DNA from: Nitzschia sp. pyKryTriq1 | Lineage: Eukaryota; Bacillariophyta; Bacillariophyceae; Bacillariales; Bacillariaceae | Direction of reading: 5' to 3' | Length of the DNA stretch: 64,000 bases | Assembly (NCBI GenBank): GCA_956465555.1 | Contig: OY101131.1 | Location: 75,469-139,468 of the forward strand | In this document: positions 2,450 through 60,865 of the stretch, piece after piece | How the letters are laid out: each line of letters opens with the position of its first letter | How positions within the stretch are numbered: position 1 is the first letter of the stretch | Notes under the pieces: generated by a model | Told to the model about the DNA's origin: nothing | The model's input: only the letters and a program-made list of their open reading frames with translations | Database searches by the model: none | Position numbers and translations under genes: made by a program

Positions 2450-5346
2450 ATCGAGAACAAGCAAGCCGACGAATCAGCCCAACCACCTTCCTGTCTTTGC
2501 TGTAATGTTTTGTTTTGTTTTGTTTCCTTGTTGGCAACATCAGCCGTTTCTTCGATTGCCCGAGGAGACACGAAACAAAACAGTACACGGTGCAAACTAT
2601 ATATACATGATGATACCACCACGACCACCACCACGACTTACTACCACCTATATATGTTCAAGAAAAGAAATGAAAAGAAAAGAAAAGAAAAACAAGTTCC
2701 CATCATCGCGATTGTTGGAAGTGGGGAGGCGTGCCACTGTACTATGAGGATTTGATCGACTATTATCTACTTTTTGCTGCTGGATGAGTTCTTCTTGTTC
2801 CTCTCAAGCCCGACGAACAGCAAACAAACAGCAAGCAAGCAAAGAGCGAATAATTATTTTCTATTAGTAGTGACACGTTTTACCCAAACATTGTTGTTCT
2901 CTGAAGAAGAATCATTAGCATGTGCACAAGCATCATCATCATCATCATCGTATCTGGCTGGTGGTGGTCTCCTTGTCGTCGTCGACCATGATGATCATTC
3001 ACCGAGGATCCAGAATCATCATCTTTTTCTTCTTCGTCGACCATCGTTACTACTCGTACTACTACTAGCTAGTAGTAGTAGTAGTAGAGCAGTAGTACGA
3101 CCGGTAGTAGTATCATCATGGCACTGAGGACCCGACATCATGATGTCATCGCTCACTACTACTATTTTATCTTCCAAAAGATGATCGACGACTGAACAAA
3201 AGTGGTGCTGGTAGTACTACTAGAGTAGTAATAGTACTAGTACTAGTATTAGTGCTGGTAGTAGTAGTACTACTAGTACTACTCAAGCTACTAGAGTAGC
3301 AGCTAGAGTAGAAGACTCGGCCGACGACTTGGTGTTGGAGTGGTGATACTACTACTACTAGAGTACTAGCTACTGGTAGTACAGTAGTTGGTAGTAGGAA
3401 CAAGGATCAGCAGGAAGTAAGAAGTGCCGCCAAAAAGATCTACTACTAGTAGCAATCCATTCTTCTTGGTACTCATCTACTCTACTACTAGCTAGTAGAG
3501 CTAGCTAGTAGAGCTAGCTAGTAGAGCTAGTAGTAGAGTTATTAGTCGTAGTCGTAGTCGTATTACGAAGATGGCTATTCATGCGACGACGAATACTATA
3601 CCGGTACGCCCGTGACATGGAAATGATGATTGCAATCGGACGATGAAAGGAAGGATGGGATGGATGGATGGATGGATCAATTCGTACGTACTGTACAATA
3701 GCACCTGTTCATTCTACTAGTAGTGCTGGTGTTTCGTCGATGGTAGATCCAGCGTTCTGACTTCTCATCATTATCAAAATATTCTTCTTCTTCTTCTTCT
3801 TCTTTCTGGTCGTCGATCGATCGCGGAGGAAACCACCAGCAGGAACAAAAAGGGGCATGATATGATGTCTTGATTTATAGATGGAAGAAGAGCGCTCGAT
3901 CTCGATCTCGATCTCGATCTCGACTGCTAGTAGTGCTGCGGATGCTGCAGTTGTAGGTCTTGGAGCAAGATGGAGCAAGCAAGCGCGTAGTAGGAGTAGT
4001 AGTGGAAGTATAGTAAGAATTTGAGTGTTGGCGGAATAATCCTCGTCGTCCCATCAGTTGCTGCGTTCCTCTTTTCTCGTTGCTCTTCTTGTAGTACCAA
4101 TCGATCGATCGCTCTATCGATCTGGATTGGTGGTGGTCCTTCCAGGATCTGACAAATGACAAATAATGACAAATAATGACAAATAATGATGCAGTAATGG
4201 AATGGTGGTACTACCAGTACCGGTAGTTGGTAGTGATTCGTTGGTGCTCGGGTAATAACTGACCGGTACGAACTTGTAAACGTATTGTCGAACAGAACAA
4301 AAGAAGGGAAGCGACGAGGCGTCGCGGTATGTCATTGGTCGAATTCTTTCATTCAAGGAGACGCCGTCGCCTTCGTCTTCTTCTTCTTCTTCCTTGTAGC
4401 AGTACATATTAACATTTATATCACTTCACGTAATTGTCTTTGGAATACAAACCAATATAATATAAAAGAGATTGCATCGCGATGGATGCGGATGGATGGA
4501 TGGATGGATGGATGGATGGAATGCACTATGATATAGCAAGCTATGCGGAATCATCATCAATAAAGCGTCAAGACTGATGACTCCTCGGACGAATGAGAGG
4601 TAGCTACCGGTACGAGTACGAGTACAGCAGAATAATGCGTCGACCTCTGACCTTGCTCGACGACGACGACGACGACGACTGACTCCTCGTCTTCTCGTCG
4701 AGTACGTGAACCCGTCCGACTTGCTGACTCCGTGGATTTCAAGCCATGCTGCTGGGTCGGGCGTCCGTGGTCGGTCGGTCGGTCGAGTGTAAAGTAAACA
4801 AAAAATAACTCGATATTTCGTGTCGGCCGTATTATTGTAGGACATTACTCGTACATACGCAGTTAGTACAGTACACGCACCCCGCCTCCCGCGCGCCCTA
4901 TTTCTACTATCAGAAACCCGAGGTATACTGTAATAAATGCCGAACTAAAATCAATAACTCGAGATTTCGCATCTATCGTATTGTAATAATAATATTATTA
5001 TTTACTCCCGAGCGCCTTACCGCGTTTCTACTCTTGACATCATACCCGCCGGGTGAAAGCTAGCTAACAAAAAATAACTCGTATTGTAATTATTTTTTAT
5101 TAGTACAGTAGTAGTAGTAGAGTAGGACTCCTCCCGCGCGCCTTACCGCGTCTCTACTCTGACATCATACCTCCCAGTACTGGTAGTACTACTGGTAGGT
5201 ACCAATAGAAGAGAGTAGAATACAAGGTGACACGGTCGTTGTCTGATGAAGGGAGGGTCATCTTCTTCTTTCTTTAGAATTAGAATTCTTGTCGAAGAAT
5301 CATCGTATCTGTTTTCAAATGCGTTAATGTACCTGTTGTGGTAGTT

Positions 5347-52849: not shown

Positions 52850-53338
52850 AACGAGATCCAAAGGATGCTGATGGAACTAGTAGTATAAGCGTTTCCAAAT
52901 AATATCCGAGCCGTTCCACCTTGGTTTTGAATATATAAGGTGGCCGATCGAAACAATGTTGGCGTTGGTGGATGGATGGTCCTCCTATTATACTATTGAT
53001 GATCGGGCCCAGTATCTTGTAAGATGGAAGCAATATTCTATGTTTCGTCTTGAATGGAGTCAGCATAGTATATCCTACTTTGGCAAAATACCATCATTGT
53101 TGCACGATTCAGATTCGGTGATTATTCTTGGGACCACGATGACCACGATCGGAGGAGGGAGCAGGAAGCACAAATCAAACATGGGACTTATTTCCGCGGC
53201 GAAGAGGGATTATTGGAGACCATATTATTGGAGACCTCCTGCTTTGGGGAAAAGAGATAGTGGCTTTCCATTGCGGGGGCGCCTCAAAAGGTGGAATGGA
53301 GGACAAGCGGAAGCAATGTGCGTCGCTTCATCATGAAG
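52850..53338 (-). pseudogene. Decayed copy of the X gene (55807-57159)
   Basis: Compared with the X gene, this stretch has the same blocks in the same order and orientation: GATCCAAAGGATGCTG (52855 here, 55963 in X), GGTGGCCGATC, GGAAGCAATAT followed by a TGTCTTGAA(C/T)GG-like block, GGAAGCACAAATC followed by ATGGGACTT, ATTGGAGAC, and GTCGCTTCATCAT at the start codon end. Several large parts of X, including most of its C-terminal half, are missing, and no frame is open through it. It is a degenerate host-gene relic, part of a duplicated block with Y1 and a decayed Z. Confidence 0.78.
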
Positions 53339-53701
53339 TACAATAGAACAGCCAAATCTCTACTAGATTGCACCAGTCCTACCTGTAGCTGGCCCATTTT
53401 TTGTTTGCTGCGAGGATGAGAATAGGTACGACTAGACTACGATTACTGACTTGATGATATTAGTCCGATCGATCCGTACTGTAGATGGCGGCCACTACTA
53501 AAAGCAAAACATCCGCAAAACCATCCTCGCATTATCGGTCACAATCCTCAATCTTCGGCTAGTACTACTTATGACCCCATACGTTCCGATTACATTCCGA
53601 TGGGTTCTCGGAATTTCTTGAGTAGAAATACTTAATATCCCCGCATAGCGCGCGGGCGGGGTATTCAAACGCGAGAATTACGGTACTGTACTACCGGTAC
53701 A

Positions 53702-54161
53702 TAGCTGTATGCATGATTCTTCTTCCTACGTGTACTTTCGTTCTAATGAATCACTGGAACATTATTTCAGGAACAACAGAATCCAGTAAAATTCGTACAA
53801 TTACACAACCCGCACTACTAGAGTGGATGGGAAAGCTTTCTGGCTCTTTTAGTACCGGTACTGTAGAGCCAGCTAGCTCTACCCCATACTCTGAGTAGTA
53901 GCGTTTCGGTAAAAAGCAAGGGACGTTTTATCTTCTGCACCGCGCGGAATTTCTTTGAGTTGATGTACCTGGTGCTGTACTGTTAGCTGTATGCAAGATT
54001 CGTCCAACGTGTACTCTCGTACTAATGCACAACAGAATCCAGTAACATTCGTACAATTCCACAACTCATAGCTACAGTAGCTCTACTATCTATTAGCTAG
54101 TAAGAGTAGTAGCGTTTCGGTAAAAAGCAAGGGATGTATTATCTTCTGCACCGCGCGGATG
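53702..54161. repeat. Diverged direct repeat, two copies
   Basis: Copy 1 (about 53702-53952) and copy 2 (about 53987-54161) share TAGCTGTATGCA, CGTGTACT, ACAACAGAATCCAGTAA, ATTCGTACAATT and an end with AGTAGTAGCGTTTCGGTAAA then AAGCAAGGGA, TTATCTTCTGCACCGCGCGG. Copy 2 lacks part of the middle. The repeat lies upstream of the Y1 gene and could affect its expression. Confidence 0.8.
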
Positions 54162-54338
54162 TTAAGTATTTTTCAACTATTATGTTCGCAGGGGCTTATC
54201 TCACCTCGCTTCCGCTATTATTTTTTCGCAAAAAAGCGCCAGAGAATATGACAACTGCTGATCGATAATGATGATGATGATGAAATGTTTCACCGCGCGT
54301 CCGATGTCATGTACTGTAGGTTCTGTTCTCACCGGATA

Positions 54339-54400
54339 ACACAAACAGACATAAAGTTGAGTTCATCATCACAAAAAAGAAAACACACTACCATAAGACC
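54339..54400 (+). promoter_or_regulatory. Y1 leader, similar to Y2 leader
   Basis: The 60 bases before the Y1 start codon (with GTTGAGTTCATCATCACAAA) match those before Y2 at 57901-57972 (GTTCAGTTCATCATTTCGCA). This supports shared origin of the two genes and their upstream parts. Confidence 0.5.
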
Positions 54401-54787
54401 ATGACCTCTAATAATACTCTATTGCAAGATTATCTTCAAAACATGCAGCGACAGCAGTGTCAAAGAATATCCATCCTGGTTTCCGATAACGCGGCGACAC
54501 ATCGAGGAGGAGTCGATGAACAAGAAATCATCCTTCGGGCTGACTCTCATGGTCATCCTCCAACGGCAAGCCGGTGGGAACACTCGCCTCCTACTATCAC
54601 CAATAAGTCCATCAAGACGGCGACATCATCATCATCATCATCATCATGTCGCAGCAGCATCACCAGCACCTTCAGTAGCAGCAGCAACAATCGCCACACA
54701 TGCTTGACAAAGCCCCAACGTCGGGTATCCATCGACGAGCAACAGCTAGCTGCCTTTCTAGCTACTAGTAAGGTGCATCGAGAATGA
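54401..54787 (+). CDS. Small protein Y1, paralogue of Y2
   Basis: A 128-residue protein. With Y2 (57973-58350) it shares LLQDYLQNMQRQ (residues about 7-18), QRISI then LVSDNAATH (about 21-35), SRWEHSPP (about 56-63) and the C-terminal PQRRVSIDEQQLAAFLA (about 108-124). A Ser-rich stretch of variable length sits in the middle. RRVS fits a basophilic kinase site. No signal peptide, membrane segment or known domain. It is a small protein conserved between two copies of a duplicated block, so it is probably a real gene. It is divergent from the pseudogenic copy of X and followed by a decayed Z. Confidence 0.78.
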   Translation: MTSNNTLLQDYLQNMQRQQCQRISILVSDNAATHRGGVDEQEIILRADSHGHPPTASRWEHSPPTITNKSIKTATSSSSSSSCRSSITSTFSSSSNNRHTCLTKPQRRVSIDEQQLAAFLATSKVHRE

Positions 54788-55289
54788 ACATAAACATGCT
54801 CCTCTTCCACTTTCATTCTACCGAAAGAAGAAAAAAAGAACCAAGAAGCAATACCACAGGTATACATTGTTTCAACAAGGATCACTCGTCATCGACGATC
54901 CATATACTAATCCGCAAAACTCACATCATGGAAGCAGCAGCATGATGCATGGCAAGGTGGCTTCTTATCAATGCTAGTAAAATCCTCGGTTCAAAGCGCT
55001 GTGAGTCGTCCAAACGACATCGAACACCATAACGAGGGGCTGGGAGTGTTGGGTCTACGGTAGTACTGTCTATACTACTACTACTACTACTACGACTGGC
55101 CAGTACCATCAATAATACTATGAATGCATGGTAGCGCCGGCAATGGAACATACAGTTCTTGTCTATGTACGTAAAACAACAACAACAACTACAACAAAGT
55201 TTGGGTTATTATTGAACGATCTCCTTCTTGTTCGTATGATACTACTACTGTACAGTACTACTGGCAGCAGATAGTGGTACTACTTTAGT
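54788..55289. other. Intergenic gap, no gene seen
   Basis: An antisense 76-codon frame (54921-55151) has a hydrophobic start but no counterpart in the other copy of the block. Not called. Confidence 0.4.
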
Positions 55290-55750
55290 ATCGTGCCACT
55301 ACATATCGTCTTGGGCGTTGAAGATGTCGTCATATTATCGATTAGTTCGTATATCATGTCTTGATGGGAATTCCATTCTTCATCACAAGAATATTCTTGT
55401 TGTTGTGGTTGTTGTTGTTGCAGCTGATGCCTTTCTTGGGACTTTTCATACTTCTTCTCCAAGTTGTGCTGCTCTTGGGACTTACTATTCATGAAGGTAT
55501 ACCACTTCTAGTCTAGAGTAGAAGAAGGGCTCTTGGGAGTCATTTTTTTTCTTGATGGGACTTTTTCATAATGTCGTGACCATATGCGTTGTTTTTGCTG
55601 TTTCGAATACTACTGCTGGTCATGCCCACCATGACACAGTATCCTTCTTATCAGGGCAGTTTCGGGGCAATCTTGTCGAAAGAGTTCCAACCGATGCATG
55701 TTGTTGGTCGTCGTTCTTCTTCATCTTGTGGCTTGATGATTACATATATT
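55290..55750 (-). pseudogene. Decayed 3' part of a DnaJ gene (copy of Z)
   Basis: Corresponds to the non-J part of the DnaJ gene at 59501-60865. Blocks in order: CTTGATGGG(A/G)ATTCCATT (55361; 59597), a GTTGTTGTT run, TGGGACTTTTCAT (two to three copies in each), and AGTTTCGGGGCAATCTTGTC then GAAAGAGTTCCA (here) against GCTTCGGGAAAATGTTGTCG (60330 area), then GTTGGTCGTCGTTCTTCTTC. The J-domain part is absent: the copy ends near 55750 just before the X gene. No long open frame remains. Confidence 0.75.
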
Positions 55751-55806
55751 TCAATGATGATTAGTGTAGGAGTAATACGAGTACGAGTTCGCCCTTATTT
55801 GCTGTT

Positions 55807-57159
55807 TCAAAGACCAAAGAACCTTCGCTTCCTTTGGTGATGACCCAACTTTTTTCGAATGGCAGCGATCCGAGCCTCATGACTGGTGGATGGTTGCTCA
55901 TCGCTACTGGATGCCTCCTGATTTTGTAGTAGTAGTTGTTGTTTTCGTTCTTGTTCTTGCCGATCCAAAGGATGCTGGAGCGTTGCCAAATATCGAAGCC
56001 GTTTCAGCTCTTGACGAACTTTGGACATTCGATCCTGGATCAATAAAATTTCATCCTCATTCGTGGGTGATGGTGCGGGCATTTTCAATTCATATCGTCG
56101 ATCCGATGTCTGAATGTCGTCATTTTGAAGAGGTCGTAGAAACAAAATCGAATCTCCTCGGTCTTGAACATACAGTCGGGATGTCAAATTTCCTCCCATG
56201 ACCCAATCGTTCAAGGTGGCCGATCCAATCAATGTCAGCATTGTTGTTGTTGATGATGATGATGATGATGGATCATGATGATGATGGTCCTGCTCGTGCT
56301 CATCCTTATCCTGATGTACTACTGATGATATTAACTGTGGATCTTCGAGAGCTACCAAATTGTCCCAGATATGATCCCACACTTGTGTTTTTCGCAACAT
56401 GCCTCGATAGTATCGTTCGATTCGTATCGTCCGCTCTGTGGGAGATCTCTTGTAGGCCAGCCGGTTGCCAGTCACAGGAAGGGAGGCAATGATACGTTCC
56501 AAAGACGAACACGCAGAAGAAGATGAAGAAGATGATGATGATGTTGATTCGTCGAGTCGTCCCCGGTACTCTCCTTGAATCCAAACGTCGTACGGCGGCT
56601 GACGACCAGGAGCAGCAGCAGCAGCAGAGTCATTATCAGCAGTATTACTATGACTGACGGTTGTTGCTGCAGCTGCAGCTGCAGCTGCAGCATCATCATC
56701 TTGCCGGAGCAATCGAGCCACGTCTTCAAACCGAATCACTGTTTCCAGCGAGTCCCTCCTCGTTTTGTCCTTATTCCATTCGACATGAAAGTGATGGGGA
56801 CCATCTTGAGTAATGGAAGCAATATCGTGTACTGTCTTGAACGGTGTCAGCAGATCCTTGGCAAAAATCCACCGATTGTAGGCTTGCACTATTCCATGTC
56901 GAAACTCGTCGAGCGAAGAAGAATCAATTGTTGTTGTTTTTGTTGTTGGGTCATGATGATGACCAATACTACTAAACTGTTGCTGCTGATAATATTCCGA
57001 TGATGATGGAGGAAGCACAAATCGAAGATGGGACTTTCCAGGAAGGGACCATTGGAGACTTTTGGGAAGAAGTTTCTTTCCAGTGGCGGCGTCTCGAAAG
57101 GTTGAATGGATGAAAACAAGCAACGAGGAGGATTGTTGTCGCTTCATCATCATCATCAT
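55807..57159 (-). CDS. X: unrecognised 450-residue protein
   Basis: The ATG cluster at 57159-57145 opens the frame; upstream in-frame codons lack ATG, so I start at the first of five Met codons. Features: FRDAATGKKLLPKSLQWSLP (near the start), EFRHGIVQAYNRWIFAKDLL followed by TPFKTVHDI (about 85-115), an acidic and Ala-rich region, GRLDESTSSSSS, RIIASLPVTGNRLAYKRS, RTIRIERYYRGMLRKTQVWD, TLIGSATLNDWVMGGNLTSR followed by LYVQDRGDSILFLR (about 330-360), and a C-terminus with long helices and a basic end (KKLGHHQRKRRFFGL). No membrane segment beyond the start. I do not recognise it. Its ancestral copy lies decayed at 52850-53338. Confidence 0.72.
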   Translation of the reverse strand: MMMMMKRQQSSSLLVFIHSTFRDAATGKKLLPKSLQWSLPGKSHLRFVLPPSSSEYYQQQQFSSIGHHHDPTTKTTTIDSSSLDEFRHGIVQAYNRWIFAKDLLTPFKTVHDIASITQDGPHHFHVEWNKDKTRRDSLETVIRFEDVARLLRQDDDAAAAAAAAATTVSHSNTADNDSAAAAAPGRQPPYDVWIQGEYRGRLDESTSSSSSSSSSACSSLERIIASLPVTGNRLAYKRSPTERTIRIERYYRGMLRKTQVWDHIWDNLVALEDPQLISSVVHQDKDEHEQDHHHHDPSSSSSSTTTMLTLIGSATLNDWVMGGNLTSRLYVQDRGDSILFLRPLQNDDIQTSDRRYELKMPAPSPTNEDEILLIQDRMSKVRQELKRLRYLATLQHPLDRQEQERKQQLLLQNQEASSSDEQPSTSHEARIAAIRKKLGHHQRKRRFFGL

Positions 57160-57972
57160 GCTGCTGAAGCAAACATCGCCTGTCGAATAAAAGAACCACA
57201 CACACGATATTACTATACTTCAACAGTTTACTGTCCCTTTTGTTGTTAATGACAGACAGCAGCAGCAGCAGAGCGTATTCCGAGAGATGTACATACAATA
57301 AGTACAGGTATTAGTTCCACAGTATTACTGGTATTTGTTCTTACAGTATTTTTTGGCGCTGACGCGACGCCGCGCCGACGGTCAGACGGATGTGATTTTT
57401 GTCGTACCAACTTCTGTCCGTCGACCCAGCTCAAAATAAAACAACAAACACGTTGCACATGTCGGACTATTCTGCCACAGCAACCCAAAATGACTACGTC
57501 GCCTTTACACGGTACTGGATCGATTGAATGTCTTCTTCAATGCGGTTTAATAAGAGTGTTTTCTCATCAAGCTTCTCCAACTTGCAGTCGCTTCTCCTTC
57601 GGTTTCCCAATCGGTACCTATGTAGTATTGCTCAATCTACAGATATAGTTAAATAGTAATAATCGTTCTTCTTTCGTTGTTCGCGGTTCACAGAGGGGCT
57701 ATCAATTCACTTCAACTTACGAGCGAGATACGACTAGTAAAGAGCAAACTGCTGCAGAGGATGAGGACTTTTACTGGAATTCTGTTTTGTACGAAGTTCC
57801 ATTGGCGAACCCCAAAACCGACCTCATTTGTACCAGACCTACGTATTTTCTCGTGAAATGTTCAATATCTGTCCACATGCGATTCTTCAAGGGTACTGGA
57901 AAACAAACACATCACTGACGTTCAGTTCATCATTTCGCACAAAAACGAAACAACAATAACATCATCACCATT
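57160..57972. promoter_or_regulatory. Divergent intergenic region between X and Y2
   Basis: Holds the 5' regions of X and Y2, with an E2F-like TTTTTTGGCGC at about 57349-57359 and a GC-rich GACGCGACGCCGCGCCGACG. The last 72 bases match the Y1 leader. No other gene seen. Confidence 0.4.
57349..57359 (+). promoter_or_regulatory. E2F/DP-like site
   Basis: TTTTTTGGCGC fits the E2F half of TTTGGCGC. It lies about 190 bases from the X start codon and about 615 from that of Y2. Consensus match only. Confidence 0.3.
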
Positions 57973-58350
57973 ATGAATACCGTGAATACCCCCAGTACTA
58001 ATCCATTGCAAGATTATCTTCAAAAGCTACAGCGTCAGGAGCAGCACCAGTGTCCTCAAAGAATATCCATCATGCTGGTTTCCGATAACGCGGCGACACA
58101 TCCTGACGAAACCTTCCTTATTCCAACGGATGCACCAGCCGCTCCGATGACAACAAGCCGATGGGAAAACTCGCCTCCTATGCCCACGTCGATCAACAAG
58201 AGGGCAAGCTCATTGGGTGGTACCACCAGATCCAGCCATACTACTACTAACAATCGTCACAATCACTGCTTGTTGACAACGCCCCAACGTCGGGCATCCA
58301 TCGATGAGCACCAGCTGGTTGCCTTTCTAGCTTCGATGCAGCGAGATTGA
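57973..58350 (+). CDS. Small protein Y2, paralogue of Y1
   Basis: A 125-residue protein with LQDYLQKLQRQE (residues about 12-23), PQRISIMLVSDNAATH (about 28-43), SRWENSPP (about 62-69) and PQRRASIDEHQLVAFLA (about 104-120), as in Y1. The middle is Ser/Thr/His-rich but different in sequence from Y1, so the conserved blocks are the constrained part. No signal or membrane segment, no recognised domain. It is divergent from X and followed by the intact DnaJ gene. Confidence 0.78.
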   Translation: MNTVNTPSTNPLQDYLQKLQRQEQHQCPQRISIMLVSDNAATHPDETFLIPTDAPAAPMTTSRWENSPPMPTSINKRASSLGGTTRSSHTTTNNRHNHCLLTTPQRRASIDEHQLVAFLASMQRD

Positions 58351-59500
58351 AGATATTTTATGTCTCTTCGAAAAGAATACGGCTGCATCTCATTCTGAAG
58401 AAGGCTGCTGTTTCATGACGACGACGATGCACGTTTCTTCTTCTTATTGACCAAAAGATAAAGAAGAAGGACCGTCTCCTGCTGGTGCTCCGCCAAAAGT
58501 CTTGACTTGCCGCGCAAGCATCTCTCATTCTTCCGATCCATGAAAGTCGACCAAGCTCACATACTGATAGCAGCATGGTGCTGCCTCTCCTCCCAATGCT
58601 ACTAGTAGAACACTTGGTTCTACTAGTATGGACGACTTTGTTGTTGGGTCTACTTCTAGCAAAGACGACGAAGAACGACATGATCCAACAACAATCACGA
58701 TGGAATGGAGCTACGCTGGTACTACTACAGCGGCCACTGGGCACGAAATCAACGTCAAGTTAAACTATAGCAAGTTCTGTGTAATCTATCAATGGATGAT
58801 GCATCTGCTTCTTGCAGACAATCTTACTACTAGAGTAGCGTGCGTGCTACAACTTACTACTACTTTGCATCCGGGAGTCCGTCCAAAAGAACTGCTGGAC
58901 GCACGAACCGTGGTATTTTCCAACATAATCCCAGAGCTCTTTGGTAGTATGCAGGGCTATGACTATTGTGGGTTTTGCTCTCACTCTACTCTAGTAGTAG
59001 AGAGTAGATACTATACATAGGCAAACTAGGCCCTCTAGTACTTGTGTTTTTGACACTAAGGACTTGCCTCTCTTCCTCTGGTGATGGTGGCGTGATGCGA
59101 CGATTCGTGAACGTACTACTGTACTTAAGTCACCTCCTCCTTGGGCGGCATTGTATTTCATCATGTATGGCCCATCCAGCATCACCTAGCATCTTCTGAC
59201 CACAGAGCAGTACTAGCGGACGTCCTTGTGAAACGTCCAACATGATGCATCGAATGACACCCATCCATATCCTTCTTTTTATTGATCCTGTTGTTGTTAT
59301 CACTACTTTTGTATCTTCTTGGTCGTCGTCTCCTCCTTGGGCGGCATTGTATTTCATCATGTATGGCCCATCCAGCATCACCTAGCATCTTCGGACCACA
59401 AAGTAGTACTAGCGGACGTCCTTGTGAAACGTCCAACATGATGCATCGAATGACACTTATATCCATATCCTTCTTTTTATTGATCCTGTTGTTGTTATCA
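58351..59500. other. 3' gap with a tandem duplication
   Basis: Between Y2 and the DnaJ gene. It carries the 196-base tandem duplication (59135-59526). The frames are short and antisense to one another, with no gene. Confidence 0.5.
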
Positions 59501-59526
59501 CTACTTTTGTATCTTCTTGGTCGTCG
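59135..59526. repeat. 196-base tandem duplication over the DnaJ 3' end
   Basis: Copy 1 at about 59135-59330 and copy 2 at about 59331-59526 are nearly identical (CCTCCTTGGGCGGCATTGTA, then CCAGCATCACCTAGCATCTT, then CTTTTGTATCTTCTTGGTCG). Copy 2 contains the last few codons and stop of the DnaJ gene. Copy 1 lies 3' of it. Confidence 0.9.
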
Positions 59527-60865
59527 TCTTCGTCAAAGATGTTTTCGTGGTCGTGGTTGATGGTGATGGTGATGATGATGATGGTGGTGATAATGTCTTG
59601 ATGGGGATTCCATTTTTTATCACAATCGTCTTGGAGGAGCTGTTGTTGTTGTTGTTGTTGCTAGTGCTATTACCCTCGGGACTTTTCATTGTGCTGGTAC
59701 TCGACTTGGTCGTGCTGGTGCTCTTGTTGCTGGTGGGACTTTTCATTACCACGGTTCCACTAACTCCCGTAGTAGTAGTACCACTCGTCGTAGTAGAAGA
59801 TGAAGAGTTCTTGGGAATCTTGGTCTTCTTTATGGGACTTTTCAAAGTAGTATTGACCATTGTATCATTTGTTGATGACGATGATTTTGTTGTTGTTGTT
59901 GTTCTTGGTGTTGGTGACATGGGATAGATCATCATTCCACTATTGTCTGTCATTTTCCCCAGCGGTTTGCTTTTACTCGTCGCAATGACTGGTTTATTCT
60001 TGGACGATCCCGGCATCATGACAGATGTTTGGGTCGTCTCTGTCGATCCATCCATGCGGGTAATGACCGTTTCCGTAATGAGTTCTTGTTGTCCATTGGG
60101 ATGGGTGACAGTGCGGGTACTACTGGCCATGCCCATGATTTCTTTCTTGTCATTATTACTGTCACCACCACCACCACCACCACCACCACCATTGTGATCA
60201 TTCTTCATGGACATGTTTCCCATGGACTTTGTTGGCACAGTACTACTCGTATTGGTTTTCGTCTTCGTTTTCATCTTTGTCTGTTTACTTTTGGATGACG
60301 ATGGAGATGTCATATTGTGATGCAGAGCAGCTTCGGGAAAATGTTGTCGAAAGAGTTCCATCGGATCCACAAATTGATGCATTTGGTTGGTCGTCGTTGT
60401 TCTTCTTGTGCTTTGTTTCCCGGGAGAACAACTACTCGTGGTATAGGTTTTGGTAAATGTTTGGGTGGTAGTACCCGAAGGAGTACTGCTAGAAGTGGTC
60501 CATTCGTGTGGAGAGGACGAGCCGAAAGAGTTGTTGTTGTTGCTGTTGTTCTGCCATTGTCGCGGTTGCTGTTCTGCTGTTTGTTCTTTGGAGGGATCAT
60601 AGTCCTCCTGAGTGGTGGTAAATTCGGGTGCCTTGGGATCATAACCCTTACTGCTACCGTGCGATTGTTGTAAATCATAATTGTGACGTTGCGGAGGATC
60701 GCTCAAGATTTCGTAGGCATTGGCAATTTGGGCAAATCGTTTCGGGTCGCCACCCTTGTCGGGATGTTGTTGCAGTGCCAATTTGCGGTAGTTCTTCTTG
60801 ATGGTAGCATAGTCGGCGTTGGTCGGAACGCCCAACAGTTGATACGGATCGTCTCCTACTTCCAT
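59501..60865 (-). CDS. Z: DnaJ (Hsp40) J-domain protein
   Basis: A 454-residue J protein, a co-chaperone that stimulates Hsp70 ATPase. I start at MEVGDDPYQLLGV (60865), 297 bases inside the longest frame, because it opens straight into the J domain. The J domain (about 6-68) has YQLLGVPTNADYATIKKNYR, HPD at 34-36 (LALQQHPDKGGDPKRF) and YEILSDPPQRHNY. There is no Gly/Phe region, zinc finger or C-terminal peptide domain, so it is a class C (type III) J protein. The rest is Ser/Thr/Lys-rich and probably disordered, with repeated MKSP/LKSP motifs. It is divergent from the 61322 gene. Its 3' end is within a recent tandem duplication. Confidence 0.9.
   Translation of the reverse strand: MEVGDDPYQLLGVPTNADYATIKKNYRKLALQQHPDKGGDPKRFAQIANAYEILSDPPQRHNYDLQQSHGSSKGYDPKAPEFTTTQEDYDPSKEQTAEQQPRQWQNNSNNNNSFGSSSPHEWTTSSSTPSGTTTQTFTKTYTTSSCSPGKQSTRRTTTTNQMHQFVDPMELFRQHFPEAALHHNMTSPSSSKSKQTKMKTKTKTNTSSTVPTKSMGNMSMKNDHNGGGGGGGGGDSNNDKKEIMGMASSTRTVTHPNGQQELITETVITRMDGSTETTQTSVMMPGSSKNKPVIATSKSKPLGKMTDNSGMMIYPMSPTPRTTTTTKSSSSTNDTMVNTTLKSPIKKTKIPKNSSSSTTTSGTTTTGVSGTVVMKSPTSNKSTSTTKSSTSTMKSPEGNSTSNNNNNNSSSKTIVIKNGIPIKTLSPPSSSSPSPSTTTTKTSLTKTTTKKIQK

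Follow-up and report, generated by a model that had tools for sequence, protein, structure and literature searches.

We analyzed a 64,000-nucleotide stretch of DNA from the diatom Nitzschia sp. pyKryTriq1 (contig OY101131.1 of assembly GCA_956465555.1), hereafter the window, and found two adjacent blocks carrying copies of the same three genes, here called X, Y and Z. Judged from the sequence, this three-gene stretch of DNA was duplicated in tandem long ago; only the small middle gene, Y, looks usable in both copies, and the other two copied genes appear wrecked. On balance, we favor a joint reading in which the block was copied in tandem and three linked genes of one age would have met three fates: Z was truncated at birth, X decayed, and Y1, the block-1 copy of Y, was retained.

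The two blocks showed collinear DNA homology in the same orientation across several genes, which confirmed the sequence-only reading of two neighboring blocks with the same gene order and orientation. The homology extended beyond Y, as the X copies (62% identity) and the Z copies (66%) also aligned between the blocks; the identity of the Y copies (73%) was higher than both in two of three alignment settings. X2 (55807-57159, minus strand) was an intact gene of 450 amino acids. X1 (52855-53338, minus strand) was a pseudogene, as had been proposed, with DNA homology to 55962-57159; it lacked large internal parts and the final ~155 bp of the coding region, and its protein alignment was broken by stops and gaps. 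A full-length X paralogue was located on contig C5 (L028:4724-5935), with no clear Y or Z neighbor within the 9.9 kb examined, and neither X2 nor this paralogue had a Pfam match. Z of block 2 (59501-60865, minus strand) matched the J-domain (DnaJ, PF00226) at 72.2 bits, well over the 27.8-bit cut-off, and the HPD motif was present in its translation. The Z segment of block 1 occupied 55340-55735 (minus strand) and was separated from X2 by an interval at 55736-55806; a further segment (59134-59529) reached into the Z range of block 2.

Y1 (54401-54787, plus strand) is an open frame of 128 amino acids and a paralogue of Y2 (57973-58350, plus strand), an intact gene of 125 amino acids. In an alignment blind to codons, all eight gaps between Y1 and Y2 were multiples of three, compared with 6/17 in X and 5/11 in Z (11/28 together; Fisher p=0.0025), and two other MAFFT settings gave 8/8 in Y against 9/22 in X and Z (p=0.004); judged by these gaps, the reading frame of Y1 was preserved beyond chance. 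When a neutral Y1 was simulated with half the divergence and with indels, a frame of at least 115 amino acids survived in 3.1-4.9% of runs (4000 per setting, any ATG-started frame on the strand being accepted and gap lengths being sampled from those in X and Z, with a cut at 60). Y1 kept 15 of the 18 residues common to Y2 and two Y-like frames elsewhere in the genome (Y3 and Y4, described below), compared with 46 of the 81 other residues (p=0.03). Looser sharing gave 28/39 against 33/60 (p=0.07), sharing with Y3 alone 26/37 against 35/67 (p=0.056), and sharing with Y4 alone 19/24 against 45/84 (p=0.02); the joint alignment may bias these tests in favor of Y1 conservation. Upstream of Y1, ~60 bp (54338-54400, plus strand) could be aligned to the flank of Y2 (57900-57972), while the remaining X-Y spacer could not.

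Several results weigh against this joint reading. The ratio of nonsynonymous to synonymous substitution rates (dN/dS) between Y1 and Y2, which had been predicted to be low, was 0.60 and not significantly below 1 (p=0.07). One of the three alignment settings gave Y a nucleotide divergence near those of the other two genes, and when only well-flanked gaps were counted there was no contrast (3/3 in frame in Y versus 7/11). With half the divergence and no indels, or with a quarter of the divergence, the simulated open frame survived in 9-30% of runs. The homology of X1 ended at 55962, ~155 bp before the X2 stop codon, which leaves the duplication with an indistinct left edge, and the X2 tail matched the tail of the C5 paralogue weakly (p=0.015).

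An appreciably less probable explanation is that block 1 is dead in all three genes and that Y1 is open by chance because it is short. A dN/dS of 0.60 is what would be expected, partly by inference, if Y1 evolved neutrally and Y2 under constraint, and the survival of chance frames under the mildest settings agrees with this; relative to Y3, Y1 also had 11 private changes and Y2 had five. Relative to Y4, however, the private changes of Y1 were no more numerous than those of Y2 (5 versus 5), and a dead Y1 fits poorly with the in-frame gaps, the retained shared residues and the alignable 5' flank. Selection on Y alone, as first suggested, was only partly supported: the in-frame gaps and the rare survival of a dead Y1 frame in simulations with indels spoke for it, but the dN/dS did not, since a dead Y1 and a constrained Y2 would also yield 0.60.

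Contig C10 appears to hold a distant relative of Y, or two of them: there, two adjacent Y-like open frames, Y4 and Y3 (L030:2177-2902 and 4523-5092), lay on the same strand ~1.6 kb apart, with no clear X or Z next to them. Y3 is likely a relative of Y: none of 1000 shuffles reached the Y2-Y3 score, and none reached that of Y1-Y3, narrowly (59 versus a best shuffle of 57). Y4 is a possible relative of uncertain kinship, as its score with Y2 was reached by 0/1000 shuffles, via a different stretch than Y2-Y3, its score with Y3 by 1/1000 and its score with Y1 by 282/1000. A genome-wide search with Y2 recovered Y1 at an expect value (E) of 4e-21 and Y3 at just 0.03, and searches with Y3 or Y4 found no other Y copy up to E 10. 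A query blended from the four Y sequences matched these four places and no other up to E 10, which is no independent proof of kinship because the query was built from the same sequences. Y3 weakly matched PF09683, and the match of Y4 to DUF6830 was under the cut-off (21.4 versus 24.3 bits). Outside short helices at the N and C termini, the predicted model of Y2 was low in confidence (mean predicted local distance difference test score of 57.7 overall), as would suit a protein that is disordered for the most part. We also observed that the N-terminal block of Y (54425-54502 and 58009-58101) was conserved at synonymous sites too, with synonymous differences in 1/24 identical-residue codons compared with 13/42 elsewhere. 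A more speculative and rather improbable proposal is that Y represents an undescribed diatom family of short disordered proteins (with a helix at the N terminus, SDNA and RW..SP stretches, and an RRxS site preceding the C-terminal helix), repeatedly kept as tandem pairs (contigs C17 and C10) for dosage or division of labor; Y would then be the reason why the block was retained as X and Z decayed. As the family is nameless, the literature was searched without a family name, and its absence from print is not claimed.

The synonymous divergence (dS) between Y1 and Y2 was 0.58, and the poor alignment of the block spacers was reproduced by simulations at K near 0.6 or more; the agreement of the two points to an old duplication. 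A recent assembly duplicate is implausible. Separate origins for the two blocks (for example, with Y and Z copied apart) and a chance adjacency are very improbable, since the three segments lie in the same order and on the same strand, and the near absence of spacer homology that would favor it is not telling because scores as low as those observed arose in 8% and 42.5% of 200 simulations each when the both-branch K of the spacers was 0.6. The X1-Y1 spacer (53773-54159) itself contained two repeated pieces (37 bp at 95% and 56 bp at 96%, with spacings of 256 and 211 bp), for which the genome DNA search, skipping common words, listed no other copies. Elsewhere in the genome, five of eight silicon-transporter matches lay on contig C1 (79892-317295), four of them within 42 kb.

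Partial copies from duplications crossing gene borders are well documented, duplicates being classed as complete, partial or chimeric (Katju 2012, PMC3449122). As far as that account was consulted, the present block does not differ in kind: the ends ignore gene borders, and a block may hold whole genes plus a truncated edge gene. Because the ends here are old and indistinct, the breakpoint was placed by inference. In the part consulted of a study of the diatom Seminavis robusta, tandem duplicates were common and less constrained than dispersed ones (PMC7335047); the dN/dS of 0.6 in Y fits such weaker constraint, whereas here one of three genes in a mixed block was kept, rather than an array expanded.

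Our finding is a fresh instance of an already known kind of event, namely ordinary duplicate-gene evolution with a fairly usual fate for duplicates, plus one useful correction. It provides a compact natural example of linked genes of the same age with three different fates. Without upsetting established knowledge in either respect, the dead neighboring genes serve as a local yardstick for judging the surviving Y, and the block also draws attention to a small family of diatom genes for which no Pfam match exceeded the cut-off.
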